Shown: piece by piece, positions 3,133-32,500 of the stretch
Numbering within the stretch: the first letter of the stretch is position 1
How the letters are laid out: every line of letters begins with the position of its first letter
IMG/VR virus record: IMGVR_UViG_3300030328_002624
Coordinates: 19,514-52,031 of that record
Reading direction: 5' to 3' (one strand)
Source: a virus
Length of the DNA: 32,518 nt
Position numbers and translations under genes: made by a program
The notes under the pieces: generated by a model
Told to the model about the DNA's origin: nothing
The model's database searches: none
What the model saw: the letters and a program-made list of their open reading frames with translations, nothing else

Positions 3133-4599
3133 TTATGCTGTAAAGTTTAGCACAGTGTGTGTTTCAGGAAGTGAAATCTCAAGACCTGCTTCTGTAAGAA
3201 CCATGTCTTTTCTTCCGTCTGTTGCATTACCTTGAACATTAGTCATAATCTGGGTGTCACGAGACTGCCCATTTGCTGCTAATGGTCTATAAGCAATGTT
3301 ATTTAGGTCTATAGCGATAGCCATATCATTCCAAGGACCTCTTAATAGAGGCTCTGCAATGAAATTAAGATTACCATATAATGTAGATACTCTAGTCACA
3401 TTATGACCAAAAGAACCTTTAACATTTTGGATATCCATTCCACTACCTGCCGCACTACTACCTGCTCCGAGATTTGACATAGTATTTCCTAAGAAACTAC
3501 TTCCACCTAGTTTATTCAACCAAGTTAAAACGCTTCTTGAAGCTAATACTAGTTTCTCTCCACTATTGCCCTTTTCAGGTGCAAATACTTCTTCCATTGA
3601 CTCAACGAAATGGTCATAGGTTGAAGATGATTTTGAGAACATACGCACTTGACCGTAAGCTTCGGTGTATGGTAAAATACCCCAAGTTTTACGTGATGGT
3701 GCATATCCAGCTGAAAATGTAGCATCGTCTGACGAGCCTACTCCAAATAACATAGCGTGTTCAATATCCATCTTATGTTCCATAAGTTTTTCTTTGTATA
3801 CACGCATGTATTCGTTAGCATCTCCTCTATAACGAGTAGCTAGTGATGTTCCTGAGAACATTGGTACTGCTGTTTTGAAGATTTGAGTATATCCTTCAGA
3901 ACTGTAGATTTCATCTCTCCAGCCTTTAGGGTCATCAGTTCCTTCAGCCCAGTTTGTACCTACAACTTGCCCTACAGCATCCACTACGAATTTAAGCTTA
4001 GACCCATTTGCAATAGTTCCACCTTCTGAAGGTACTTGACCTTTCTTAGTAGCTGCTTGTCCAGCAGTTCCTGTAGGTTTGTACATTGCTTTTAGGAATG
4101 TAGCTGCTATTGTAGCTTTGTTCGTTCCTAAAGTTGGGGCTGCACTTATTCTGTAGTATGCAGTAACATTAAAACCGTTAGTTGTATTGATAGCCCAATT
4201 AGAACCATCGACGGAATAAATTGCGTCAATTGCTATAACTTGCCCTTCCAATAAGAACTGTGGTTGTGAGCCTGCTGCTTCTCTACCGTATTTATCATAA
4301 CCGCAGTCTACTTCAAATGAAGCTGGTAATGCCCAGGCTGCACTTGAATATGCTGCTGTAACTTTTTCCGCTATTACGTCAAAGTTTCTACGTTGCCATT
4401 GATGTCTTTTTTCTAAAAATTTAAAAACAGGGTCATCTGTTGGTTTCTTAGCGACTTTTGACAAATAAGAGAAAAAAGGTGATTGTTCGGGTGCTAATTC
4501 GGCAATTCTCTCGCCGAAATTAAAGATTCTTCTTGAATCATTAATGGACACACCCTGTGGGCTTACGCCCGTGAGTTGACTTTGTATGTCTGTAGCCAT
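3133..4599 (-). CDS. Major capsid protein (SU10-like)
   Basis: 488 residues with an excellent AAGGAG site. It is the main shell protein. The N-terminus (RRIFNFGERIAELAPEQSPF) followed by PVFKFLEKRHQWQRRNF, the middle MDIEHAMLFGVGS, and the C-terminal sequence ending KDMVLTEAGLEISLPETHTV resemble the SU10-type (HK97-fold) capsid family; the E-loop and A-domain cannot be placed by eye. It follows a coiled-coil scaffold gene and precedes connectors, the standard order. A hairpin after the stop may protect the message. Main uncertainty is the exact capsid subfamily. Confidence 0.82.
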   Translation of the reverse strand: MATDIQSQLTGVSPQGVSINDSRRIFNFGERIAELAPEQSPFFSYLSKVAKKPTDDPVFKFLEKRHQWQRRNFDVIAEKVTAAYSSAAWALPASFEVDCGYDKYGREAAGSQPQFLLEGQVIAIDAIYSVDGSNWAINTTNGFNVTAYYRISAAPTLGTNKATIAATFLKAMYKPTGTAGQAATKKGQVPSEGGTIANGSKLKFVVDAVGQVVGTNWAEGTDDPKGWRDEIYSSEGYTQIFKTAVPMFSGTSLATRYRGDANEYMRVYKEKLMEHKMDIEHAMLFGVGSSDDATFSAGYAPSRKTWGILPYTEAYGQVRMFSKSSSTYDHFVESMEEVFAPEKGNSGEKLVLASRSVLTWLNKLGGSSFLGNTMSNLGAGSSAAGSGMDIQNVKGSFGHNVTRVSTLYGNLNFIAEPLLRGPWNDMAIAIDLNNIAYRPLAANGQSRDTQIMTNVQGNATDGRKDMVLTEAGLEISLPETHTVLNFTA

Positions 4600-5587: not shown

Positions 5588-7876
5588 TCAGCTATCACCT
5601 TCATTGGCGTCTGCCGAGTTCATTAGATTTGCTTGAGCGTCATCTAATCTAGCTTTATATAAGCTAGTTGCCATTTCAGCCCTGTTAGTCTGTTTATCCA
5701 GACCTGAACTGAATTTTTCTACTTCAAGTCGTTTCTTAGCATGAACTTCTTCACGTTCTGCTGTTTGTAGGTCTCCCTTGACTTGTTTTAATTCTTGTTC
5801 TAGCATTTGTATATGTTGAGCCATTTGCTGCATTTCACCAGAACGCTGCAATACTCCCTCTACATCAACTAGCTCAGATTTCTTCAATACTTCTACCTGG
5901 TCAATTAGTCCAGCTGAGTATAATTCTTTATAAGTGTCTAGTAATGCCATTCTATTTGTAGGTAAAGTAGAGCCCGATACAACAACAATATCATATCTTC
6001 CTACTCCAATGTCATGGAATTTTTTAACTGTCCCATTGTCCATTTCTTTATAGAAATTAAATCTTTCTGATTTTTCTGTACCATTAGGTTGAACTAATCT
6101 AATAACCTTTTCTTCAGTATATATTTGCTGCATTAATGGTATTGCTACTTTAGCTACGTGATTTAACATATTTTCTATGTCGTCTCTACGAGACTTAATT
6201 CTTCTTTGACCAAACTCGTCTACTACTACAGTTCCTCTATAAGTAGATGGAGCACCCTGTGAGCTTCCTTGCATCAATTCAAAGATACCAAACCCATATT
6301 CTAGGTCATACTTAGCATCAGACTCGTTTTTATATAATTCATTTGGCAATGGAACTGGACCAGCTACAATAGGAGCTCCAAGTTCTGCATCAAACTCAAT
6401 AACACTTGTTCCTGCTTTTGCCCACTCTTCTTCAATTTGTTTTAAATCTGCTGAACCACGAGGAATTAATAGCTTTACATTAGTGCTTGTACTAGCATGA
6501 GCTATAATTAGTGAACGTATTTTGTTAATATATTCTTGTAATGGTCTAAATATTCTAACATCAGAATCTGGATATGGTGTACGATGATGAATATTCATTA
6601 ATGGAACAATAGGATATTCCTCTATCGGTAATTGTCTTTTGTAAAGTAAAGCATCTCCACATGAAACGACCATGTTAACCCTAGGAACTTGGACTAAATT
6701 ACATGTTATCGCTCCAAGTCCCTCTAATTCCTCTACTGTCATAGGAATTAATACAACTGTACTACCTGGAATAGAATCATCATCTTCTGGACCAGGAACT
6801 CTGACAGGTTCTTGAGGAATGATATTCCCCTGTTCATCCATTTCAGGGTCTGGTATTTCAAAGTGATAGATAGGACCATCTTGTTCTATATAACTAAATA
6901 AATCTTCTACAGACTCTTCATCAAATATAATTTGTTCTTCACCTGTAATTTGTTGCAGTTTTATATAATATACTTTTCTGTATGATTCGTATTCGCCCTC
7001 ACTCATTAAAAATTCTCTATCAGAAAAAGGTTCATAGCAATTATACTCATTTGCCATTACTTTAGTATAACGCTCCATGTATTTACGTTTTTCATGGATT
7101 CTACTATCTTCGTCTCCAGGGAATAATTGTCCTTCATTTGCTGAAAGTTGGGTCGTTGGTTTATCTTCTTGAGATGTAAATGTTCCCATCGCATTTGAAT
7201 TTTTAATAATATCTATATAATCTGGATATAACTGTTCTGCTTGTTCATCTGTAATATATTTTGTTACAACAATATTTGCAGCATCACGAGCATAAACATC
7301 TTTTGAGTTAGGGTCTATATAGACATCTAATGGATTAATAGCTTTAAAACAAACCTCACCTTTACCTAAATCTGCCATAGGGTCTTGATAAACTTGCATA
7401 ACTCCCATTCCACCTACATAGTAGTCATCTACAATTCTTTTTAATTCTTCGTCCCCGCTTGAATATTGCCACATATATTGAAATAAATCTGAAAACACTT
7501 TAGAAGTTGCTCTATCTGAATCTTCTCTTCCAGTTGAACGGAATTGAGGAGAATTGTATGTAAGCAAAGATTTTGCTGTTTCTACGATAGGGTGAATACG
7601 ATTTACAACAATAGGAGCTTGTCCACGAGCTTCTAGAACATCAGACTCCTCTAATGTCCATTGAGCTCCTGCTCTAAACTCTACTGCTTCTTGAAATTTT
7701 TGAGCCCATACTTCACGTGCGCTGCTATAATCTTGAAATAGCTCTAAAGACTCTTCTACTTCTTCGGGGATATTTTTAGTGTTAATGTTACCTGATTGGT
7801 AATCAAAAATAAACTCTTTATCTTTTGATGATTGAGTTCTTGTACTGCTTACTCGATTTTGAATCTTTTTTGGCAT
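5588..7876 (-). CDS. Portal protein (P22-like)
   Basis: 762 residues. It forms the dodecameric ring at the unique capsid vertex through which DNA is packed and ejected. The N-terminal third has the P22-type signature: FRAGAQWTLEE, then RGQAPIVVNRIHPIVE, then DDYYVGGMGVMQVYQDP, then FKAINPLDVYIDP. An acidic insertion lies near residues 340-375. The C-terminus (about 650-720) is a long coiled coil (MLEQELKQVKGDLQTAEREE), as in the P22 barrel. Length fits the P22 class. The 5' end overlaps a small upstream gene in another frame. Confidence 0.9.
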   Translation of the reverse strand: MPKKIQNRVSSTRTQSSKDKEFIFDYQSGNINTKNIPEEVEESLELFQDYSSAREVWAQKFQEAVEFRAGAQWTLEESDVLEARGQAPIVVNRIHPIVETAKSLLTYNSPQFRSTGREDSDRATSKVFSDLFQYMWQYSSGDEELKRIVDDYYVGGMGVMQVYQDPMADLGKGEVCFKAINPLDVYIDPNSKDVYARDAANIVVTKYITDEQAEQLYPDYIDIIKNSNAMGTFTSQEDKPTTQLSANEGQLFPGDEDSRIHEKRKYMERYTKVMANEYNCYEPFSDREFLMSEGEYESYRKVYYIKLQQITGEEQIIFDEESVEDLFSYIEQDGPIYHFEIPDPEMDEQGNIIPQEPVRVPGPEDDDSIPGSTVVLIPMTVEELEGLGAITCNLVQVPRVNMVVSCGDALLYKRQLPIEEYPIVPLMNIHHRTPYPDSDVRIFRPLQEYINKIRSLIIAHASTSTNVKLLIPRGSADLKQIEEEWAKAGTSVIEFDAELGAPIVAGPVPLPNELYKNESDAKYDLEYGFGIFELMQGSSQGAPSTYRGTVVVDEFGQRRIKSRRDDIENMLNHVAKVAIPLMQQIYTEEKVIRLVQPNGTEKSERFNFYKEMDNGTVKKFHDIGVGRYDIVVVSGSTLPTNRMALLDTYKELYSAGLIDQVEVLKKSELVDVEGVLQRSGEMQQMAQHIQMLEQELKQVKGDLQTAEREEVHAKKRLEVEKFSSGLDKQTNRAEMATSLYKARLDDAQANLMNSADANEGDS

Positions 7877-8045: not shown

Positions 8046-9533
8046 CTACAATAATCGCCAATTTTTTCTTTTAGCTGCAAATAGGTTATTTTCCTGCTTT
8101 TTAATAACAGTTTTATGTGCTGGTTTATAAGCATTCTTATTTGCATAGAAAAATCCGTCAAGTAAATCATCGTGCTTTCCCCTGGGATATAATAGTAATT
8201 CGTCTACTAATGGTTGCATAGATTTTTGCATGTGTACTTTCTTATTAGCAAACAAAGGCTGCAAACTTTCTAATCTATACGACTTGGATGTTCTAGGATT
8301 CTCTTTTATTTCAAGACCAGGGATAAACAATCCCATCTCTGCAGACTTTTCTTTAATGTACTGACGTAGCATTTCCTGATATCCGACAGACTCAATACGT
8401 GTCTTAGCACTTCTATAAGTTTTAAAGTTACTGATAATAGCATCTGCTAGATTTAAAGGTTTAGCTCTTTTTCTATAATAAGGAAGAATGAATCTATTGT
8501 TATCCTTATCTATTGCCATGTTAAATACGACAGAATAGTCGGCACCTCTTTTTGTACTGGAGGCAGGGTCGACGCCTGTAAACACGTTTACAGGTCTACT
8601 CTCATCTACTTCCTCACCATTAAGGTTCGTCAGGATGAGAGTTGACAACCCTTGCTCATTTTTCTCAACGAATCCTTCGTAGTATTGAAAATCTTTTTCT
8701 TTAAATAAATTTTCTTCATCTCCAACAATCTCACATAAGTATTCTCTGTAAAATACAGAGATACGATTGATACTATCCAATTCTTTTTTCTTTTGTATTA
8801 ATTTTTCAATAGGCCATACTGCTGGCCATAAAGCTTTCTTTTCAGACATATTCGGTGAGAAGGTTAAATTCTTCCAACCCTCCATATCTTTTAATGTTTC
8901 CACTAAGCATCTTTGATGCTGTGGAGTACCAATAACACAAACCTTTCCTCTCATCGGGTCTAAAGAAGGAACACCAGATTGCAGCAACCATCTCAAATTA
9001 AACTCCATGGACTCTGCTGTCTTGGTATTATTTTCATCTTCAGGGTCATCAAGGATTAAAAGAGTAGGTCGTTGATTTCCGTGTTTAATACCACGAATCT
9101 GCTGACCAGTACCTTTGCACATAATAACAGAGCCATCTTTTAACTCAATCTCCGTGTTTGTCCATTTCTTTGCTGATTGCTGCCCCCAGTATCCAAAGAA
9201 ATGTCTAAACTCCTGGGAATAATCTAAAACGTCTTTGATTGTACCTAATAGCTTTGTGGCGTGACCTTGCGTACGAGACACAAGAACAATAACTTTAATA
9301 CCAGGGTCGAACATCAAATGGAATAAAGGATAAACACCAGCAACAATGGAAGACTTAGCGTGTCCACGAGGAGCAATTACATTTAACTGCGTCACGTCTG
9401 GTTTTAATAATTGTTTAGAAATGTCATAATGAAATCGTGGAGACTCTTCACTAAACATATTCGGCATAACCATTCGGCCGAATAGCAACATATCTTGTTG
9501 CATATCTAATAAAATTTTATCTTTGTTCATCAA
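8046..9533 (-). CDS. terL: Terminase large subunit (ATPase-nuclease)
   Basis: 495 residues. It is the DNA-packaging motor and cuts the concatemer. The ATPase domain carries the Walker A-like loop APRGHAKS (54-61) and Walker B LLILDDPED (about 158-166) with the catalytic acidic pair. A coupling motif follows (CVIGTPQHQ, about 199-207). The RNase H-like nuclease domain starts at TGVDPASSTKRGADYS (319-334), with further acids near GKHDDLLDG (about 465-473). Full length. The start overlaps the end of a 44-codon gene, and small terminase lies just upstream. Confidence 0.96.
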   Translation of the reverse strand: MMNKDKILLDMQQDMLLFGRMVMPNMFSEESPRFHYDISKQLLKPDVTQLNVIAPRGHAKSSIVAGVYPLFHLMFDPGIKVIVLVSRTQGHATKLLGTIKDVLDYSQEFRHFFGYWGQQSAKKWTNTEIELKDGSVIMCKGTGQQIRGIKHGNQRPTLLILDDPEDENNTKTAESMEFNLRWLLQSGVPSLDPMRGKVCVIGTPQHQRCLVETLKDMEGWKNLTFSPNMSEKKALWPAVWPIEKLIQKKKELDSINRISVFYREYLCEIVGDEENLFKEKDFQYYEGFVEKNEQGLSTLILTNLNGEEVDESRPVNVFTGVDPASSTKRGADYSVVFNMAIDKDNNRFILPYYRKRAKPLNLADAIISNFKTYRSAKTRIESVGYQEMLRQYIKEKSAEMGLFIPGLEIKENPRTSKSYRLESLQPLFANKKVHMQKSMQPLVDELLLYPRGKHDDLLDGFFYANKNAYKPAHKTVIKKQENNLFAAKRKNWRLL

Positions 9534-10656: not shown

Positions 10657-10684
10657 AATATATACGTATATCCTTAAATGTCAA
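10657..10684 (-). promoter_or_regulatory. Leftward sigma70-type promoter in a TATACG-repeat region
   Basis: On the minus strand a perfect TTGACA (complement of 10679-10684) is followed after 16 bases by TATATT (complement of 10657-10662). The same stretch (about 10640-10675) is built of interleaved palindromic TATACG/CGTATA units, so an operator could overlap the promoter. It would drive the packaging and head operon starting with the gene at 10580. Confidence 0.55.
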
Positions 10685-10909: not shown

Positions 10910-10977
10910 ATATTAAAGTAAAGCCAATATTTGAAAAATACAACTAGAATGTGTGCACGTGATATATATGTATCCTA

Positions 10978-11377
10978 CCCCATACGGATATTCGTCGCTC
11001 GGACTAATTTTCGTTGAAAATTCGTCGTTCGAGCAACGCTCCAGGCATGCTGCCCCATGCACAACGGTGTTGAGCACGGGCATGCCTGTCGCTTCGCATC
11101 CACTACGGAGAGACACTCCGTAGTGAAGCGTTGCTCTTCCTCGCTGTGTGTCAACCTCCGATTAACGTCGGTAACACACAGACGCAAAACACGAAAGCCG
11201 AGGCTTGAGCACGCTCAACCCTGTCTTGCTCACGCTACGGCGTTGCCTTGACCGCTTGAGGAACAAAGGACCGAGCAAGACAGCGTCTTTCTTTTCAACT
11301 CATCGGTGTTCTTCCCTTCGGTCATCACACGTCTTATATTTTTTTAGTCCTCGCTCCTCACATATATCCGTATGGGG
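10978..11377 (+). ncRNA. Structured domain 1 (about 400 nt)
   Basis: Closed by CCCCATACGGATAT (10978-10991) pairing with 11364-11377, 14 perfect base pairs, backed by GGACT (11001-11005) with AGTCC (11346-11350). A three-way junction follows: GAGCAACGCT (11031-11040) with 11127-11136 encloses CAGGCATGC/GCATGCCTG (11042-11050, 11080-11088) and CACTACGGAG/CTCCGTAGTG (11101-11110, 11116-11125). Further helices: TGTGTGT/ACACACA (11145-11151, 11174-11180) and CTGTCTTGCTC/GAGCAAGACAG (11221-11231, 11273-11283). Open frames here are interrupted and lack ribosome binding sites, so it is read as non-coding. The strand is not determined by the domain itself. Confidence 0.6.
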
Positions 11378-11418
11378 GGACCCTTACCAAAAACCTTTAT
11401 ATTAATACCTTGCATCAT

Positions 11419-11507
11419 ACTGACTGCAAGTGTTCACATGCGATAAGCCCCAATCGCTATGGCGATTGCGATATCGCATTGTGTTCACACTTGACAAAGG
11501 AGTCAGT
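11419..11507 (+). promoter_or_regulatory. Long leader hairpin abutting a start codon
   Basis: Three stacked helices: ACTGACT (11419-11425) with AGTCAGT (11501-11507), CAAGTGT (11427-11433) with ACACTTG (11487-11493), and TGCGATA with TATCGCA. Their apex is a CCC/U hairpin. The AAAGGAG site (11496-11502) lies in the bulge and the 3' strand, and the last paired base precedes the ATG at 11508, so folding should restrict ribosome access. Confidence 0.55.
11439..11478 (+). promoter_or_regulatory. CCC/U hairpin, copy 1
   Basis: Outer helix TGCGATA/TATCGCA, internal loop AGCCC against CGA, inner helix CAATCGC/GCGATTG (11451-11457, 11462-11468), loop TATG. It differs from the majority copies in the upper two pairs, with both sides changed. 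It sits at the tip of the leader hairpin of a 42-codon frame. Confidence 0.65.
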
Positions 11508-11636
11508 ATGTTGCAACTATTTCGCCTTTTGATGAAAACGCCGTTTAGTTACTGGAAAGCAATTCTTGCTTGTCCAGATAACGAACCGTTGCATTTTCAT
11601 CATGACGGCTGTCCTTGCTGTTGGAGGAAATCATGA
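11508..11636 (+). CDS. Possible 42-residue Cys/His protein
   Basis: Frame starting MLQLFRLLMKTPFSYWKAIL and ending FHHDGCPCCWRKS. A canonical AAAGGAG lies five bases before the ATG and a terminator 48 bases after the stop. The C-terminal HFHHDGCPCCW cluster could bind a metal ion. The region is GC-richer than the early genes and its bases also form nested hairpins, so it may be a chance frame inside a structured RNA. The ideal ribosome binding site is the main argument for translation. Confidence 0.45.
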   Translation: MLQLFRLLMKTPFSYWKAILACPDNEPLHFHHDGCPCCWRKS

Positions 11637-11684
11637 GATTACCTCCAAGCAAAGTCATCAACGTGTTTTGACACGTTAATGAAA

Positions 11685-11722
11685 GAAATCCCCTACTATT
11701 CGTAGAGGATTTCTTTTTTTTT
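11685..11722 (+). terminator. Intrinsic terminator
   Basis: GAAATCC-C-CTAC (11685-11696), loop TATTC, GTAG-A-GGATTTC (11702-11713), then nine T (11714-11722). An 11-bp stem with one C/A mismatch followed by a pure T-run is a classic rho-independent terminator on the plus strand. Confidence 0.8.
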
Positions 11723-11865
11723 GCTAAAGGTTTTTGTCGCTAGATTTCTGGCTAGTGCCAAGAAAAGAACCTTCTTGTCACTATCCTTCTATCTGCTCTT
11801 CCTGTTTCGTCATCCTTACTCTTCCACTCTGCATACCGATACGCAACTTTTCTCAACGCACAGCC

Positions 11866-12028
11866 AGCCGTTCAAACGTTTTATCTCCCAGGGACTCCAG
11901 ACAAACGGCGAATAAACACTCCGTCAATTCCCCAATCGCTGTGGCGATAGGTATTGACGGATATTCGCCCGTTTGTCATTCCGTCCAACTGGGAGATTTT
12001 TCTATGGAAAATCAAACGTTTGACGGCT
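11866..12028 (+). promoter_or_regulatory. Leader hairpin that buries RBS and start codon
   Basis: Nested helices, outside in: 11866-11881 with 12014-12028 (one bulge), ATCTCCCAG (11883-11891) with CTGGGAGAT (11989-11997), GACAAACGGCGAATA (11900-11914) with 11962-11977 (one bulge), and CCGTCAAT with ATTGACGG. The GGGAG site (11991-11995) is fully paired and the ATG at 12004 sits in an internal loop. If folded, translation of the frame at 12004 should be off. Confidence 0.6.
11921..11960 (+). promoter_or_regulatory. CCC/U hairpin, copy 2
   Basis: Outer helix CCGTCAAT/ATTGACGG (11921-11928, 11953-11960), CCC on the 5' side, inner helix CAATCGC/GCGATAG (11933-11939, 11944-11950) with one A/A mismatch, loop TGTG. 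It forms the tip of the long leader hairpin before the 87-codon frame. Confidence 0.6.
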
Positions 12029-12267
12029 GCACTTTCATCGTTTTCTCTGGCGAGAAAACAGATGACGGCAAGGCTGTTATTGCGTTGAGAACCCGTCACG
12101 CCAACAGAGTTGGCTACGGGGCAGTTGCGTATCTCAAGTCTAAAGACTCTGTGACTCAAGTAGCAAGCTACTTGCAGTCAAGAGGTCTTGACTTGTATGC
12201 AAGAGGTCAGAGTAAGTCTGGCAACTCGCTACGCTTCGGCATCCTCAACATGAAAACCAAGGCATAA
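12004..12267 (+). CDS. Possible 87-residue protein in a structured RNA
   Basis: Starts MENQTFDGCTFIVFSGEKTD and ends RFGILNMKTKA. GGGAG lies eight bases before the ATG. The amino-acid make-up looks like a small alpha/beta protein (VIALRTRHANRVGYGAVAYL, then VTQVASYLQSRGLDLYARGQ), but no family is recognised. The same bases form perfect hairpins: 12040-12059 (loop TGGC), 12100-12114, 12157-12174 and 12176-12193. Composition is unlike the AT-rich early genes. Either a foreign gene with strong secondary structure or a non-coding RNA with a chance frame. A short terminator region follows. Confidence 0.5.
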   Translation: MENQTFDGCTFIVFSGEKTDDGKAVIALRTRHANRVGYGAVAYLKSKDSVTQVASYLQSRGLDLYARGQSKSGNSLRFGILNMKTKA

Positions 12268-12282
12268 ATGCCTAGGTTTTCG

Positions 12283-12368
12283 AAGAGCAGAAATGGATAG
12301 TGCCCCCTCACGTCTTCATCAAGTGAAAAAGAACGACTCGTCGTTCGGGGGGAAGGCTCTTTTTTTTT
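12283..12368 (+). terminator. Branched terminator-like structure
   Basis: AAGAGC (12283-12288) pairs with GCTCTT (12356-12361). Inside, CCCCC (about 12303-12307) can pair with GGGGGG (12347-12352), with hairpins CTCAC/GTGA and AACGA-CTCG-TCGTT. Nine T (12360-12368) follow. It probably ends a plus-strand transcript. The stem is longer and more branched than usual, so strength is uncertain. Confidence 0.5.
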
Positions 12369-12447
12369 GGCACTAGCATTTTTTTCTAATGTAGACAAAT
12401 CAAAGTAATGATTTGTCCGTCTTTCTTTTTCAGAAATCTAGCGACTC

Positions 12448-12645: not shown

Positions 12646-13265
12646 TAGCGGTAAGTATGGTATGTTGAAAAGATTTGCAGGGGTTACTAGCGTAACCTCT
12701 GCTCAAAATTGGAATGAATGGCGAAAGTCCCAATACAATACCCAGGGGAAGCGTTCTGGGCATTCCATTAGTAGTATATATGACCTATTACCATTGACGC
12801 GCAATAACAGATAGGATTAACATGGGCTGTTGATAGGTCATATATATGTAAAGAATTTTTGTAAAGAATTTTAAGTTATTAATATGCAGTTAATACCTTA
12901 AAATGGTTTTAAACATTGTGAAAGAGGCTAGATAAGCCCTCTACAATGAGTTGTATAGTCCGATAGGACCTTGGGCGTATCAAATGATACGGATAAGCCA
13001 GCCAATAATGCTGGAATACAATGTTGTTTGAGTAACAAAGATAGGAGTTTATCCTACTTATATGCATAGTCAAAATGGTCAATTACTTGGAGCCATTCTA
13101 TGCCATATTTATCTGCTCAATGAATAGGTAGTCAGAGATGACATATCATGCCTATTTGAGAGTGCTCTGGTAAGAGTATAAATATGTAAGTAAACGTGTC
13201 TTCAGAGAAGATGACGTAAAATCTAACAAACATGAGAGTGATACCAAAACCTCTCTAAAACCACT

Positions 13266-13303
13266 TATATGAGGGAACTTACGTTCCCTTATATATTTTT
13301 TTT
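13266..13303 (+). terminator. Strong intrinsic terminator of domain 5
   Basis: TATATGAGGGAAC (13266-13278), loop TTAC, GTTCCCTTATATA (13283-13295), eight T (13296-13303). Thirteen base pairs with one G-U and a clean T-run. This fixes the plus strand and a likely 3' end for the ornate RNA near 13303. Confidence 0.9.
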
Positions 13304-22204: not shown

Positions 22205-22458
22205 TGACTGCCAAAAAGATAGTCTTACAATGGATAGACAATCGTTTTAAAAGTAATCCTTTGTTCTATAGCTTTGATTTTGAAAGCTCGATAGCAACAT
22301 ACGGAAAACTTGTTCATTTAAAAACACATAGCCCTAGTACATACTCTAGGGCTTTTAGAACGATTAGGTCTAATAACGATTTGGAAAGACGTGGTTTAGA
22401 GTTAGAAGAAATTAAAAGTGAAAAGGTAAGTAAAGGTTGGATAATAAAGAAACTATAA
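22204..22458 (+). CDS. Small helix-turn-helix-like protein
   Basis: 84 residues starting MTAKKIVLQWIDNRFKSNPL. HLKTHSPSTYSRAFRTIRSN is a basic segment that resembles the recognition region of small winged-helix proteins, and the end (VSKGWIIKKL) suits a strand. One-base overlap with the SSB gene; overlaps the primase-helicase start by 22 bases. Possibly an origin or replication accessory factor. Confidence 0.5.
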   Translation: MTAKKIVLQWIDNRFKSNPLFYSFDFESSIATYGKLVHLKTHSPSTYSRAFRTIRSNNDLERRGLELEEIKSEKVSKGWIIKKL

Positions 22459-24236
22459 TAGAAATAGTTGAAGGAAACATTGCAAATAGAAATAAAATTT
22501 GCAGTTTAGAAGACTATTACAAGAAAGAGAAAGATAATGCATGGAAAGATGAAATGTATCGTTCTTATTACTCGTTTGATGAAACGTTTTACGATTACGT
22601 AAATACTAAAAAAACAGTAAAAGGATTTGACGGTCTTTGCTATGTAGATAAACTCATTATAGATATTGATAAAGGAACTATAGAAGATAGTAACTTTCAA
22701 GGATATACTATTAGTTGTATTGATGAACTAATAGAAAAAGGTGTTTATAATGATGATATAAACGTATGGTTTAGTGGCACTGGTTATCACATAGAACTAT
22801 TAAACGTATTTGGATTTCAACCAAGTAAAAATGTTTATGAAAAAGTAAAATCTACTTTAAAAGAACATTTTGACTTTGGAGATACAATATACGATAAAAC
22901 ACGAATTATACGTTCCAATTGGAGTTTGAATAGAAAGAAAAATCTATACAAAGTCTGGATTCCGTTAGAAGAAATGTATAGTATATCTTATGATAAGGTA
23001 AGAGAAATTGCTTCATCAAAAGAAAACTATCTAAAATATATCAAAGAAAGCGATATAAGCTTTGATAGTATTCATTCTACGGAACAACAAACAGATGCAT
23101 ATTTACAAAGCATGATTGTTGCGTCTCCTACAATAGTACCAAATGGTAATACGAAGAAAGGTGATGTAACGTCTGTTGTGTCTTGTATGCAACATGTCTT
23201 TAACGAAGGTCCAGTAAAAGGCTCTAGAAATATGAAAATCATGAGAATGGCTAGTTCATATAAGAGAGCTGGAATACCATATCTAGTTACATTAAATGGA
23301 ATGAAAACTTGGAGTAATGGAGCTATCAATGAAGATGAAATAGTAAGGTCTGTAACTAATGTTTACGATGAGAATTATCAATACGGATGTAATGATACTA
23401 TCATGAGTGAATATTGCGACCCTAAATGTATACACTTTCAAAGGAAAGATTATACATTAGATATTAGAGACGTAATTCAAATGCAAAACAACTTAAAAGA
23501 TATGATACTAAAAGACATGTCTAAAAAGTCTGTTAATTTAGCAGATATATGGAATGTTAATCCATTCGTTATAAATCCTGGAGAACTAGTTGTTTTCTCT
23601 GGAGATACTGGTATGGGTAAAACTGCATTTGTACAAAACATTATCACTAAATGTAAAAAGGATACATTGTTTCTATCGTTAGAGATGGATGAAACTTTAA
23701 TATTTAGAAGATTTATTCAAGTTGCTGCTCACAAAGACAAAGAATGGGTTTATGAACAATTCAGAAATAACCCAGATGTTGACTTTGAAGAAGCATTGAA
23801 ACATATCAAGATAATGACTATTGCACCTACTTTAGATGCTATAAAGAAAGTAGTAGCACAGAACGAGCCTAATATATTAGTAGTTGATACTACTGATGAA
23901 TTACAAGTTACTGGAAACAAAGGCGTAATAGAAGAACAGAATGCTATTATTGATACATTGAAGCAAATTGCTCAAAAGAATCATACGATAGTATTTGCAA
24001 TTCATCATGTTAATAAGATGAGTGCTTCTAACAATCACATTAGTTTACACTCTTTGAAGGGGTCTTCTAATGTTGTTCAGAAAGCAGACAAAGTGATTCT
24101 TATTAGAGGTGAAGAATCTGAAAGACACAGAGTAATACAATCTGCAAAGTCTAGAGATGAAGATAAATTGGAACTCGTATGTCAGTTTAATTACGAAACT
24201 ATGACGTTTGAACAAACAATAATGGAGATGATATGA
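22437..24236 (+). CDS. AEP primase - DnaB-type helicase fusion
   Basis: 599 residues. It would prime and unwind DNA at the fork. The N-terminal half looks like an archaeo-eukaryotic-type primase: LIIDIDKG (about 71-78, metal-binding acids), WFSGTGYHIEL (about 110-120, the sxH motif) and RIIRSNWSLN (about 157-166). A cysteine cluster (CNDTIMSEYCDPKCIHF, about 318-334) may bind zinc. The C-terminal half is a RecA-type helicase: Walker A SGDTGMGKT (about 386-394), Walker B NILVVDTTD, FAIHHVNKM and LKGSSNVVQKADKVILIRG. TTG start after AAAAGG; no nearby ATG. Confidence 0.82.
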   Translation: MDNKETIIEIVEGNIANRNKICSLEDYYKKEKDNAWKDEMYRSYYSFDETFYDYVNTKKTVKGFDGLCYVDKLIIDIDKGTIEDSNFQGYTISCIDELIEKGVYNDDINVWFSGTGYHIELLNVFGFQPSKNVYEKVKSTLKEHFDFGDTIYDKTRIIRSNWSLNRKKNLYKVWIPLEEMYSISYDKVREIASSKENYLKYIKESDISFDSIHSTEQQTDAYLQSMIVASPTIVPNGNTKKGDVTSVVSCMQHVFNEGPVKGSRNMKIMRMASSYKRAGIPYLVTLNGMKTWSNGAINEDEIVRSVTNVYDENYQYGCNDTIMSEYCDPKCIHFQRKDYTLDIRDVIQMQNNLKDMILKDMSKKSVNLADIWNVNPFVINPGELVVFSGDTGMGKTAFVQNIITKCKKDTLFLSLEMDETLIFRRFIQVAAHKDKEWVYEQFRNNPDVDFEEALKHIKIMTIAPTLDAIKKVVAQNEPNILVVDTTDELQVTGNKGVIEEQNAIIDTLKQIAQKNHTIVFAIHHVNKMSASNNHISLHSLKGSSNVVQKADKVILIRGEESERHRVIQSAKSRDEDKLELVCQFNYETMTFEQTIMEMI

Positions 24237-24421: not shown

Positions 24422-24754
24422 ATGACACACAAAAATAAAATACGTGGTAACAATCTTGAAAGAGAATGTGTTAATATCGCAAAAGGTGAGGGGCTCTCTG
24501 CAGAGAGAGCCTACGCCTCTAACGGTTTATCACTAGGTAAATCTGAACAAGTAGATTGTGTAGTAGAAGGATATGCGATTCAAGCTAAAAGAAAAAAGAA
24601 AGTCGCACAATGGTTATATCCTAAATACCATGCAGACGATGTAGATGTAGTCGTAACTCGCATGGATAGAAAAGAAGCTTTAGCAATAATACCATATGAT
24701 GAATGGATTAGGTTAATAAAAATAGAAAAGGAAAATTCTAATGAAAATAAGTAG
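24422..24754 (+). CDS. Holliday-junction-resolvase-like nuclease
   Basis: 110 residues. RGNNLERECVNIAKGEGLSA (Glu in the first helix), then SEQVDCVVEGYAIQAKRKKK (Asp, then Q-x-K) is the E...D...(E/Q)xK arrangement of small PD-(D/E)XK resolvases. IIPYDEWIRLI ends the fold. It would cut branched intermediates left by the annealing protein or trim concatemers before packaging. Starts directly at the previous stop. Confidence 0.7.
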   Translation: MTHKNKIRGNNLERECVNIAKGEGLSAERAYASNGLSLGKSEQVDCVVEGYAIQAKRKKKVAQWLYPKYHADDVDVVVTRMDRKEALAIIPYDEWIRLIKIEKENSNENK

Positions 24755-26052: not shown

Positions 26053-26310
26053 ATGAAACCACTAAGAGATGAGATTATTGTAAAGAGAGATGCCAATGAA
26101 GAAAAAACAAAATCTGGTATTATCTTACAAGGCAATGATGATAATATAAAAACGACTGGAACAGTAATAGAAATAGGACCAGAGGTTAAAGAGCTAAAAA
26201 AGAAAGATAGAATTCTTTTTCACTCCCAACAGTATATTGTTCAAATGGTAGAAGGCAAAGAAATGATTTTTATGCCAGAAGGTTCTGTCCTAGCAATATT
26301 GGAGAAATAA
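26053..26310 (+). CDS. GroES-like co-chaperonin
   Basis: 85 residues, slightly short for GroES (about 95). Start MKPLRDEIIVKRDANEEKTK matches the GroES opening. SGIILQGND is the mobile loop whose hydrophobic triplet docks on GroEL. GTVIEIGPEVKELKKKDRIL and the ending EGSVLAILEK complete the beta barrel. It would replace the host co-chaperonin so that GroEL folds the phage capsid, as T4 gp31 does. Strong AAAGGAG site. Confidence 0.85.
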   Translation: MKPLRDEIIVKRDANEEKTKSGIILQGNDDNIKTTGTVIEIGPEVKELKKKDRILFHSQQYIVQMVEGKEMIFMPEGSVLAILEK

Positions 26311-26568: not shown

Positions 26569-29500
26569 TTATTGGTCAGATTGCTCTTCTTGAGGGTTAT
26601 TTGCATCAATTTGAGCCCTTCTTAAGCTATGAATCTTATGTAATGGTATTCCAGTCATAAAGTCTACTGCCATAGCTGGTGAATCAATAGTTCTTTTAAC
26701 GTCTCTAATCATTCTACCGAAAGGTAAATAACTATATCCATAGAATTGTTTCATTTTATCAAAATCTCCACTTAATATTGCACTTGTAGGTGCAAGCACT
26801 GTACGAGCAATAGGTGGCGTAACAATAGATAATGGAGCTAAAGCTGGATGCGGCCATTGACTAAAGAACGCACGTTCTCTATCTTTTTCATCTCCAAACA
26901 ACCATTGTGCAGTATCTTGTGCCCATGACATAGGTGGAGATAAAGCATATTCAAATATACTTGCTGTAAATATATAAGATAATGCCATTGACATCATATC
27001 CATTGTAAATTGTCTTCTGCCTTTTTCTGTAGCGTAAACATCTCTTTCCCATCCTGCTGCCTTTGCAACTTTATATATACCTTCTTTTGGTCCAAATCTT
27101 CTTCTTACACTATTCCAAGCATAAGGATGGAATCTTGTCATAACACGACCCATAGAGGTTTGAGAGTAATTAGAACGATGAGCAGCATGATACATGAATT
27201 GTGATGCTTCTACACCTTTAATAGCTCTTTGAACCAATTCTGGAGAGTTCCATTCTATAAAATCTAATGGAGAATGTTCCATTCCAGTTTTTAATAGTTC
27301 TCTAGCATTCAAATAATGAGCTAGGAATGAACGAGTACGTAATTGATATTCAGACCATGACATAAACGAAGCACCAGCTTTGAACACTCCTTGCCCTATA
27401 CCACGTTCTCTTCTAACTTCAAGTAATGTCATATCCATAGCCTTATGCCATTCAGCTTTGTTCATTGAACCTATTTTACCTTTATTTTTTGAGAAGAATT
27501 TATGAGCAACTTCAGTTGCAAACGTTTTAGCTTTACCTTTACGTAAAGCTCTATCTAATCCAATCTCTGTTATGAACATACCTTCTAATGCACCAGTACT
27601 TTCAATCCAGTCTAATATATCTTCATAGTTTTTAATAGTTTTCTCTACCTTATTTCCTTTAGAATCAATACCTTCAAATCTTTTATTCTTCATACCTACT
27701 TGATTTAGCAGATAATCTTCTCCACCAAATTTAGTAGCACGATATATATTCATAGCACCTACATCTGCATATAAATTTTGACCACCACCCAAGAAATTGG
27801 TAATAGTTGTTTTAGGGTGAGATAATAATGAAATAAGCTCAAATTTAGCTTCCCAGGCACTAAATGCTTGTAATTTTTTAGATAATAGCAATCGTCTATT
27901 TCTTAAGTTGCTCGTAGGTATATCTTTAGTAAACCAAGGCTTAAATCCTGTCATATCTTCAAAACGCATTGCCATACCTGTCCAAGCTTCATCACTTACC
28001 AAGGTATAAGCCAATTTAAATTTACCTATCTTATCTATATTTTTAGGGTCTGCTAATTCCTTAGCGTTTTTCATTCTAAGCTTATGCAATTCTTTTTCTA
28101 CTCTTTGTTTATTTTTAGGATACTTATTTTCTATAATACGTCTGTCTATTCTATCTGGTTCTATATGGTCAGCTACATCCTGAAGAAATCTTTTTTGATG
28201 CCCTTGAAGCACCTTCCAGTTATTATTAACTGCATTTCTATCTAAATCATTTTCAATAAACTTACCCAAAAGCTCTACTTCACCCTTTTTAATACCATGG
28301 AGGTCTAAACTTCTCAAGGAAGCATATCCTAACATATTTGAGGCAGCATCTTTAATATAAGAACTCCAATTGTCAGTAAATTCTCCAAAAGGTCTAGTCT
28401 TATCAAAGTGTTTTATATGAGTATTCATTCTAAATCCAGCGTTTATATCAAAGAAGTTTTTAGATATAGCTCCAGAATAGCTTTCAATAGCTTTTAAATC
28501 TGTTTTCCAGAAAGGAAGGAATGCCTCTGACCTACTCTTTAAATTTCCTGCAGTATAATCTCCAGCAAAACTTTTCTTTCTTGACCTTAAAAGTTCAGTA
28601 ACGGAATTATAGTTATCCAAGCTTTCATTGAAAATAGAAGAACCCTGACGCATTTCTAGTTCTTCTTTAACTCTAAGCTTATAATCCATTCTAGCTTCCT
28701 GTAATGTAATCTGACCATTAAAATACTTATCTCTTAAGTCTGCTGGTAGTTCTTTTGCTGGTATTTTTCCAGCTATCTCAATAATTTCATTCATCCATTC
28801 AGCCAGCTTTTCTCTTTTAGCTTTTGTTTCAAAGTGACCTAATTGAGGAAAGTAATTACTGGACCTACCATCTTTACCTACAAATTGCCCAACTTTATGA
28901 ACCCCTAATGGATTATTCTTTTTATATTCTTTAATAAATGACTGTATTTCCTTATCTGAAGCATTTTTCTTAAGCTGTCTTTGGGCTGCATCCTTCATTT
29001 CTAAATGGTATTTAAAATATAAGACATCATTTATGGAAGGTAAACTATCTACAGTTTTTTGAGTTGTTTCTGTTATAAATTCAATACCTCTATATAACGA
29101 ATCAACTTTCTTCTCACTTATAAAGCCATCTTTATTTAAAAACATTTCATTTAACGATAGAACCCATTTACTATCTTTGTTTTCTTTGATATCATAGGCA
29201 TTATTCACATATTCGTTTTCAAACCCGTTTTTTTGTAAAATAACCTTAAAAGGATTCGTCTTATCCGTAACCTTACTCTGAACTAATCTTGTATTTATAT
29301 CGGTCAAATATTCAGTAATAGTATTATCTATCATCTTTTTAAATTCTTTAAGAGTAACTGTTTTATCTGCACCATTTTTACCTATACCAACTAAATGATA
29401 CTTTTTATCTCCCAAGTCCTTTAAGTTTTGTTGACTGATTTCATATTGTTGCTCAACATACTCTTTTGATTTTCCTTCCATTATCTTTTTCAGATAAGTT

Positions 29501-32500
29501 CTATTAGAGCTTGTTCTTTTTCTACGCCTACTGTTGGTTTTAATTCTTTTAGTTTTTTCCCAGGTTACAGCATCAAAAATGATTTCAAAGTCTTTCATAA
29601 CTTCAGGGTCGTCTGTGTCAATATAGTCAAATAAACCTTTCAATCTTTTTTCCATATACTCATTGTAGGCAGAACTAATTCTATGGAAAGAGTCTGCAGT
29701 TTGTCTTACCATTTCTAACGTACTTGTAGGAACTTCCAGTGAGTATGTTTTCAACTTACCATCATCACCAATTAACTTAGCATCTGGCATGAATTGCATC
29801 TTTTTCTCAAATGGTATTAAATCTTCTGCCACTCTTTTAAATAAAGATAAGTTTGACCAATTCCCTAATTTTGGAGGAACTTTTTTCAATTCTAATACAT
29901 GCATTTCTTTACCATTATTGATATAGTCTTTTTCTTGCTTATATTTCAATATAGGATTACCGTCTTTGTCAATTTCCCATCCTTCTGATTTAATAATATC
30001 TGATAAGTCTTTTTTATCAAACTTACCTAAGCCCCTATCTATTACATTGTAATAATCTTTTCCAATCTTTACTATTATTTCTGATTTTCCAGGTTCAAAC
30101 CAATGTTCCTTCATCCATTCTGCAGTTCTTATAGTTGTAGTTTTTAATCCTTCAGAAACCTTTTCTCTGTTTTTAGTATCAAAACCGTCTTTTTTACCTC
30201 CAAACTGTATACGAGCATCTTCTCTTTTAACTATATTAAGAAGACCTTCTACTTTTCTTACTATATTTCCTCTATCAAAATATCTCATATTAAGATAATC
30301 GTTAAACATTGCTAAATCATTTGTTGTCATATTACCAAAAGACTGTCTAAAACCTTTAAATGCTTCCATAGCAGAACCAAATTCAACCTCTAATACCTCA
30401 GATAACTCTGGATTAGCTCTTACAAATTTAGACAATCTAAGTAATTCTTTTTCACCTCTAGTTGTAACAACTGTGAATCCAAACTTCTTGATAAGTTCTT
30501 GCATACGATATTCTTTGAATTTTGGAAACTCTGGAGTTTGTCCTTTCTTTGGTTTTTTAGGAGTACCAGGGAGTTCTTCTTTTTCTGGTTTAGTAGTTTC
30601 TTCTTTTTCTGGTTTAGTAGTTTCTTCTTTAACTTTCTCTGGCTTAACAGACTCTTCTTTAATCTTCTCTGGCTTAGAAACGTCTTCTTTAACAATTTCT
30701 TCTACAACAATCTTATCTAGAACTTCTTCTTCAACTTCAATAGCTTTTTTCTCAGGAGTGTTTCGTTTTTTCTCTCTAGCTGGTTTTTTAGCTTCTTCAA
30801 CTATTTGTTCAATAGCTTCAACTCTGTTTAAACTTTTAGCTATTCCTGGAAGCTCTTTAGAGGATGTGGTTAAATCCATTGCGTTTGCTCTATCTAATAC
30901 ATTCTGTAAAAATCCAAAATATTCTTTTCTATTCTTATGGCTAACAACACTACTTTTCATTAAATGGTCAACACGAGGTCTCATTTTATTTATAACTTTT
31001 CCTCTCATAGTATAAAGCTGCGACAAAGTTAAGTCAGGAGAAGGTTGAGGGTCGGCGCCTTCTTCTTTTACCCAGTCTAATTCTCTATATTTATCAAGAC
31101 CTTTAACCTTTCCTTCATACCCCGCTCCCTCATTTAGAATAGTTTCATTTATAACTTTATTTATAGTATTCAATTCAGCAATATGTTTTTCTTGTTTAGC
31201 CTTAAGAGCTTGATTGTTTCCTCTTTGTAATATAGGATTTGTCATCATCCACGCATCATAAACTCCCTCTGCTAGCTTCCCTGGTTCACTATCTCTTTCC
31301 CATCCTAGATGTTTTTTAAAGTTAGAAAGCCATTTGTTTTTAGATAAAGCAAATAACTGCTGTATATCAACACTGTCAGGTTGATTGTTTAGAACTTTAT
31401 CAGCAGAAGATTTATTACTAAAACCTTCTTTTTGAACCCTATCTGCTCTTTCTTGAGAGTCTTGCTTTATAGAAAAAGTTTCTTTCATCACTTGTCTAAT
31501 CATTTTATGAGCATCTGACGGAGTAACTCCTCTTGAAACTAATTCATTGACTAGTGCTTGTGATTTGGACATAGCATAGCTCATACTTATCATATCTGTT
31601 GCAGCATCCCAAAATAATTCTTCTGAATTTTTTAAAGCTTTACCCTTTAATGGAATCATTTTACCTTCTTTATTCCTTTTAATTCCATAGAGAGCATCCA
31701 ATTCTTTTGGATTCAAAACAGCTTCATAAGGGAAGTATATTTCTAACTCTTTATATAACGGATTAGACTGATTCTCTTTAGCTATAGCGCTAGCTAATTG
31801 ATAAATCTTGGTCTTATTATAATGATTAAAAGGACTAATATCTATTTCAATTTCTGCAAATATTTCTGCTAAACTTGTATAAAAATTACCAGTATTCATA
31901 TGACTTCTTCTGTCATGTGCTCTTCTTGCGTCTGTTCCACCTTCTAAATAATATTCTGCTATCTTTCGAGCTGATTCTGGTGTTGTAAAACTTTTAGTTG
32001 AGCCAAATAAAGAATCATGGAAATCTTTCATAACTCTTAATCCTTGAAACCCTTTGTTTGTACCAGTGCTAAACATCTTATGGAACATAAATTCTGCTGG
32101 AGCATCTTTGACTAACTCTACCTTTCCAGTCTTTTTGTTTGTTCCATATATATCAAAATACTTATGGAAAGCTTTAGTTGTTGAAGGTCCAGCGTGTCCA
32201 GCTCTTGCATAATCAGCTGAATCTGCAGCTACGTTAATTCCATTATAGCCATCTTTTACTATGGTCATAAAATCTAAGCCATCTTTTACTGCTACATAAA
32301 AATTATCGTATTCTCCTTTAATCTTTACATATGCTTTTGGTTGCTTTTTCTGCCATTTCTTTTTCTTGGGAGCTCTTGTTGCAGCCCAATCTCCTAGGTC
32401 ATATAAATTCTTTCCTTCTATTACGCTTCTACTTCCATTGGTTTGTATCGTATCATATAGCCATTGCATTCTAGTATAGGCATTTACAACAATACCCATA

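Follow-up and report, generated by a model that had tools for sequence, protein, structure and literature searches.

The window analysed here, a stretch of 32,518 nucleotides, covers bases 19514-52031 of an IMG/VR virus record of 52031 bases. It belongs to the genome of a tailed phage with a leftward structural module and a rightward module, and the folded element described below sits in the divergent gap between the two (Table 1). The rightward module also encodes a RusA-like resolvase (24422-24754), a GroES-like co-chaperonin (26053-26310) and a 1976-amino-acid protein (26569-32499) that gave no PHROG, Pfam or PDB match. This last protein was considered, and rejected, as a phage RNA polymerase recognising the conserved block next to the element; a regular-expression scan of it for polymerase signatures returned short TxxGR-type matches alone, which are uninformative. 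A near-consensus sigma-70-like promoter (TTGACA-16-TATATT, 10657-10684) points leftward into the structural module, and a 70-amino-acid ORF from 10909 may, judged by eye, be leaderless.

Table 1. Positions of genes, motifs and predicted helices in the window.
Feature	Position	Strand	Remark
Major head protein	3133-4599		leftward module
Portal	5588-7876		leftward module
TerL	8046-9533		leftward module
Conserved block, putative rightward early promoter	10934-10981	+	logo of 86 leaders
Block, A-tract	10934-10939	+	
Block, TAGAATGTGTGCACGTGATATATA	10945-10968	+	
Block, CCTACCCC	10974-10981	+	
P1 5' arm, terminal closing helix, 14 bp	10978-10991	+	p 0.005 vs shuffled downstream sequence
P3 5' arm	11001-11007	+	pairs with 11344-11350; L014 and L015 equivalents differ in sequence
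GTTGA motif	11013-11017	+	fixed distance from block
10-bp helix, 5' arm	11031-11040	+	pairs with 11127-11136
CCCC-bulge hairpin of leader	11042-11088	+	CCCC 11053-11056; 9-bp helix 11042-11050/11080-11088
Hairpin H1	11101-11125	+	10-bp helix 11101-11110/11116-11125; invariant loop AGAGACACT 11109-11117
Hairpin H3	11144-11181	+	fixed internal loop (C-A-CCT / GTAACA side), covarying stems
11-bp helix	11221-11283	+	11221-11231/11273-11283; identified in the window genome only
Hairpin H4 region, then T7 run	11305-11345	+	seven T at 11339-11345; L014 and L015 alike, by eye
P3 3' arm	11344-11350	+	
P1 3' arm	11364-11377	+	
First CCCCAATC hairpin outside leader	11448-11470	+	
First rightward ORF, 42 aa	11508-11636	+	AAAGGAG ribosome binding site
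Intrinsic-terminator-like hairpin	11681-11720	+	3' of first ORF
Other CCCCAATC hairpins	starts near 11930, 12595, 13399, 13577, 14251, 16391, 18239, 19881	+	
DnaB-like helicase	22437-24236		rightward module

An earlier note on this DNA had described 10978-11377 as a GC-rich island of perfect helices arranged around a perfect three-way junction. The island is real (53% G+C, against 27-46% in other 400-nt windows), and an inverted-repeat search recovered the perfect helices of 14, 11, 10, 10 and 9 bp, together with two of 8 bp. These exceed chance, as 60 dinucleotide shuffles gave a mean of 0.85 repeats of at least 8 bp, the longest being 10 bp. The single junction needs qualifying, the predicted fold having more branches. 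The RNA minimum free energy (MFE) of 10970-11385 is -156.2 kcal/mol on the + strand (z -7.4) and -183.5 kcal/mol on the - strand (z -10.0); none of 100 shuffles reached so low an energy on either strand, and the fold z-scores of the element span -7 to -12. When the whole window was scanned in 400-nt windows with 15 shuffles each, 10978-11377 had the lowest MFE on both strands, the lowest z on the - strand and the second lowest on the + strand, behind 11601-12000. The strongly structured zone extends past the element to about 12.4 kb: 11601-12400 forms another very strong fold (z as low as -10.3), and nested inverted repeats (11736-11766/12362-12445) flank an 87-amino-acid ORF.

We regard the element as non-coding because no reading frame in it looks real. 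The earlier note had seen no ribosome binding site here, and indeed none of the five ORFs checked carries a Shine-Dalgarno-like site. No conserved protein emerged either: tblastn matches in two relatives, L014 and L015, reflect DNA similarity, falling in overlapping frames on both strands. The families of Rfam 15 gave 0 matches at the gathering threshold in the window and 12 relatives, and nothing usable at permissive thresholds. The region matched 0 records of known-phage DNA, 0 of 82 stretches in a prophage/host search of genome contigs encode a TerL relative, and a narrow literature search on early leader RNAs of marine podoviruses found no matching paper.

Relatives were gathered by TerL searches (10 loci, later 80) and by pattern scans (the best 80 of 111 stretches, then 65, then 34, the last two scans requiring GTTGA), which provided 100 leaders distinct at 95% identity over 150 nt, and 97 after three were dropped. 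The three left out of the counts (L119, L132 and L164) match the block, lack GTTGA and lie, by eye, in unrelated contexts; L050 and L052 were retained though they lack GTTGA. In blast comparisons, upstream DNA similarity ends at the edge of the fold, and about 100 adjoining bases are conserved. On the + strand the consensus of the conserved block runs A-tract, TAGAWTGYGTG, TATATA and CCTACCCC, derived from a logo of 86 leaders. The block occurs once in the window at no more than three mismatches (chance mean 0.02) and once per stretch in the listed relatives, and leftward promoter elements of the 70-amino-acid ORF overlap it. The folded element directly follows this promoter-like block, with a start site predicted there, and precedes the first rightward gene.

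We infer that the block is the rightward early promoter, mainly because short leaders leave little room for any other: in 16 of the 90 leaders that have such an ORF (97 in total), the first ATG with a ribosome binding site lies 103-130 nt from TAGA. By eye, TATATA could serve as the -10 element, with a weak TTG-like -35 element about 18 nt upstream. A virion terminus (cos) was also considered for the block and rejected, as it is internal in all ten contigs of more than 40 kb from the TerL search in which it was located, and comes no closer than 10.9 kb to an end when the distances are worked out by hand.

Two features accompany the block in relatives, a short motif and a hairpin. The first is GTTGA, which lies at offset 66-68 in 72 of the 73 leaders collected without regard to the motif (72 of 76 if the three dropped rows are taken as misses) and at exactly 67 in 62 of the 73, with a background frequency of 0.0013 per position. 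In 29 of 97 leaders, compared with 2.4 in shuffles, another GTTGA comes no more than 39 nt later, most commonly at a spacing of 18-19 nt. The second feature is a hairpin of unrelated sequence that starts at the matching spot in relatives and is usually shorter than that of the window genome. With 200 shuffles per leader, a stem joining the bases behind TATATA to a more distal part of the leader was significant in 38 of 97 leaders at p<=0.01 and in 48 of 97 at p<=0.05; the 38 stems form 28 clusters. All 38 come from the 81 leaders that offer at least 60 nt for a stem; the 16 with less space yielded no significant long stem. Some relatives have block and GTTGA alone, and the short forms often show, by eye, a small local hairpin just 5' of TTGA. 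Stem sequences are unrelated between lineages, many of the gapped stems have their first pair 1-10 nt behind TATATA, and leaders measure between about 100 and more than 500 nt. A pattern built on one conserved piece of the leader matched the two already known relatives alone.

Evidence for the fold itself comes from L014 and L015, whose TerL proteins are 87% and 84% identical to that of the window genome. Both have homologous leaders that keep the architecture: the stems differ in sequence yet still pair, and the loops stay constant. In H1, all 24 of 24 cells are paired, five of eight pairs changed on both sides and 0 of 500 shuffles did as well; in H3, the corresponding values are 32 of 32, five of 11 and 2 of 500. 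All 10 varying pairs of the two hairpins change on both sides and none on one side only. As these are three sequences only, we take them as good evidence for a structure and weak evidence for its details. Among such details, GTTGAAAA (11013-11020), which includes GTTGA, is able to pair with 11292-11299, and a pairing of GTTGAAAA with a distal TTTTCAAC can form in all three genomes. Hairpin H4 and its run of seven T, placed ahead of the 3' closing arms, possibly constitute an attenuator-like site.

Covariation with fixed loops, together with the strongest fold by energy, thus bears out the earlier description of the element as structured, and its non-coding character also stands. What lacks support is the notion of a stand-alone RNA, since no closing terminator is seen and the element lies between the promoter-like block and the first rightward genes. 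Large ornate phage RNAs such as GOLLD and ROOL are linked to phages and thought to be stand-alone and trans-acting. The present element resembles them in being large and multi-branched; it differs in giving no covariance-model match and in forming part of a leader instead of a separate gene. A trans-acting RNA transcribed from either strand would agree with the size, the complexity and the closed terminal helix, as well as with the better folding of the - strand. We nevertheless consider it quite improbable, given that no terminator follows the 3' arm, that Rfam holds no match, and that the elaborate form of about 400 nt is confined to the window genome, L014 and L015 among 100 leaders.

We tentatively favour, at somewhat less than an even chance, the reading that the element is a cis-acting structured 5' leader of the rightward early transcript, with the 5' end buried in the terminal helix. 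Rightward transcription would begin at the TATATA of the block or immediately behind it, so that the first transcribed bases enter P1. Nested helices would come next, with GTTGA near +40 and fixed-loop branch hairpins, ahead of the first ribosome binding sites. By placing the 5' end in a stem, the variable part would most likely shield early mRNA from 5'-end-dependent decay, and GTTGA and the block may add a second, sequence-specific layer with a partner of its own, either a regulator site or an early-elongation site. Protection of mRNA from RNase E by 5'-terminal stem-loops is an established mechanism. It would account for a stem kept at one spot without any particular sequence, because 5'-end protection needs just that. 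The leaders are in this respect like the stabilising stem-loops of the ompA and papA type, with a stem near the presumed 5' end whose sequence is seemingly irrelevant. They are unlike them in the much larger form of the window clade and the additional GTTGA at fixed distance, and mRNA stabilisation remains putative; titles by Belasco and colleagues on 5'-terminal stem-loops and RNase E appear in the reference list of PMC3997798. Two findings speak against protection, namely the 16 short leaders without a significant long stem and GTTGA, which protection leaves unexplained.

The orientation of the ORFs and the bias of terminator-like sites in the next 3 kb (20 on the early strand vs 4 on the late strand in 67 phages) fit rightward transcription. 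Structure does not settle the strand. Both strands fold alike (mean z -5.9 early and -6.3 late), the late strand being the more stable in 23 of 37 leaders. GTTGA shows no preference for open positions on the early strand (unpaired 0.34 vs 0.44) and is somewhat open on the late strand (0.53 vs 0.43; n = 96 for both). RNA of the early strand should tolerate G.U pairs, and these are nearly absent: the 38 significant stems comprise 686 Watson-Crick pairs, 0 G.U, 19 A.C and 63 other mismatches, and the folds of the window genome, L014 and L015 hold 2-4 G.U pairs per sequence. We have withdrawn the comparison of 0 G.U with 19 A.C as a strand test, since base composition favours A.C in the C-tract region (offsets up to 41), which contains 14 of the 19 cases, and since a terminator control gave 79 G.U vs 91 A.C, without an excess of G.U. 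Folding of the late strand as well as or better than the early one, and the scarcity of G.U pairs, confounded as it is, nevertheless weigh against the leader reading. Because G.U pairs are almost absent, + strand transcription is a matter of inference here and a role at the DNA level is possible.

A DNA-level element of this kind could be an operator or replication start with a cruciform-forming or single-strand-folding inverted repeat, or a repeat whose perfection is maintained by template switching; in either case the RNA fold would be a by-product. Dominance of Watson-Crick pairs with both G.U and A.C rare, the two-sided change in 10 of 10 varying H1 and H3 pairs, and a GTTGA spacing that is fixed even without a long stem would all suit it, as would the second GTTGA, which at 18-19 nt resembles a tandem protein site. 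Cumulative GC skew also turns at about 12 kb; this turn, however, coincides with divergent transcription, and the block is no virion end. Moreover, the fixed multi-base apical and internal loops within covarying stems of the window clade look like RNA, and rightward genes have further examples of the leader's CCCC-bulge hairpin in their 5' UTRs. On balance we hold a DNA-level function to be unlikely.

The recurring motif consists of CCCC and a short hairpin (CCCCAATC...GATTG), with nine copies on the + strand of the window outside the leader hairpin. Their stems vary, and between 11448 and 19900 most copies occupy the 5' UTR of a rightward gene, as a rule some tens of bases ahead of the start codon. 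Counting leader copies, L014 has eight and L015 seven; beyond this clade, no other of the 100 leaders is followed by at least three. In shape the leader's own hairpin fits this set, an argument for transcription of the + strand. If the leader reading is true, the repeated hairpin offers a second RNA motif for study in those mRNAs.

The main and nearest functional rival of the 5'-protecting leader is RNA-only antitermination as in phage HK022, in which nascent structure would bind the elongating host RNA polymerase and cause terminator readthrough, with GTTGA as a promoter-proximal signal. PMC9378689 describes put RNAs as about 70 nt long and similar to one another in sequence, each with two defined stem-loops, and putL as lying just downstream of PL with pairing from A3. 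The element shares with putL and putR a structured RNA at the presumed start of an early transcript, pairing from the first bases and no evident phage protein. Its occurrence once in the window, directly behind the promoter-like block (one match per stretch in the listed relatives), and the GTTGA spacing fixed in 72 of 73 leaders would agree with such a role. Of 67 phages, 15 have early-strand terminator-like sites in the next 3 kb, L186 as many as four, which would suit readthrough, but the scan showed a terminator in these 15 only. First genes are diverse, the largest family covering 11 of 98 phages, so that no N-like protein is evident at the site. The differences from put are that stems are unrelated in sequence and leader size varies between about 100 and more than 500 nt, and a put-like activity, putative in any case, seems to us rather unlikely. 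A conserved promoter-proximal short motif beside a variable stem also recalls lambda nut with boxA and boxB. Here, however, no N-like first gene is conserved, the motif is not consistently unpaired, and boxA-like [CT]GCTCTT is not enriched, occurring in 2 of 97 leaders against a shuffle mean of 2.0.

Structured early leaders are already known; what is new is a leader that a whole family keeps in position and shape, combined with a fixed GTTGA and a 400-nt elaboration. A bolder proposal would be an undescribed class of early leaders in uncultured marine phages, in which block and GTTGA license a nascent RNA that acts in cis and conserves nothing but the shape of its stem; in one clade this RNA would have become a multi-branched form of about 400 nt that acts on the host's RNA polymerase and needs no phage protein to do so. 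Taken as a whole, we think this unlikely to be correct. If the leader reading is true, a marine phage lineage for which no isolate was found would control its first transcript with a leader in which selection favours shape over sequence, and its members would offer a natural series for testing how nascent-RNA structure protects or drives early phage transcription.

Two further observations concern the early region of the window. The stretch 12841-13303 contains few genes, is folded (z about -5.9) and ends in a strong terminator-like hairpin at 13266, so that it is possibly another RNA. Just upstream, the DNA of a 50-amino-acid ORF (12662-12814) resembles, by eye, a stretch in five relatives (L068, L077, L078, L080 and L082), and it possibly encodes a small conserved early protein.
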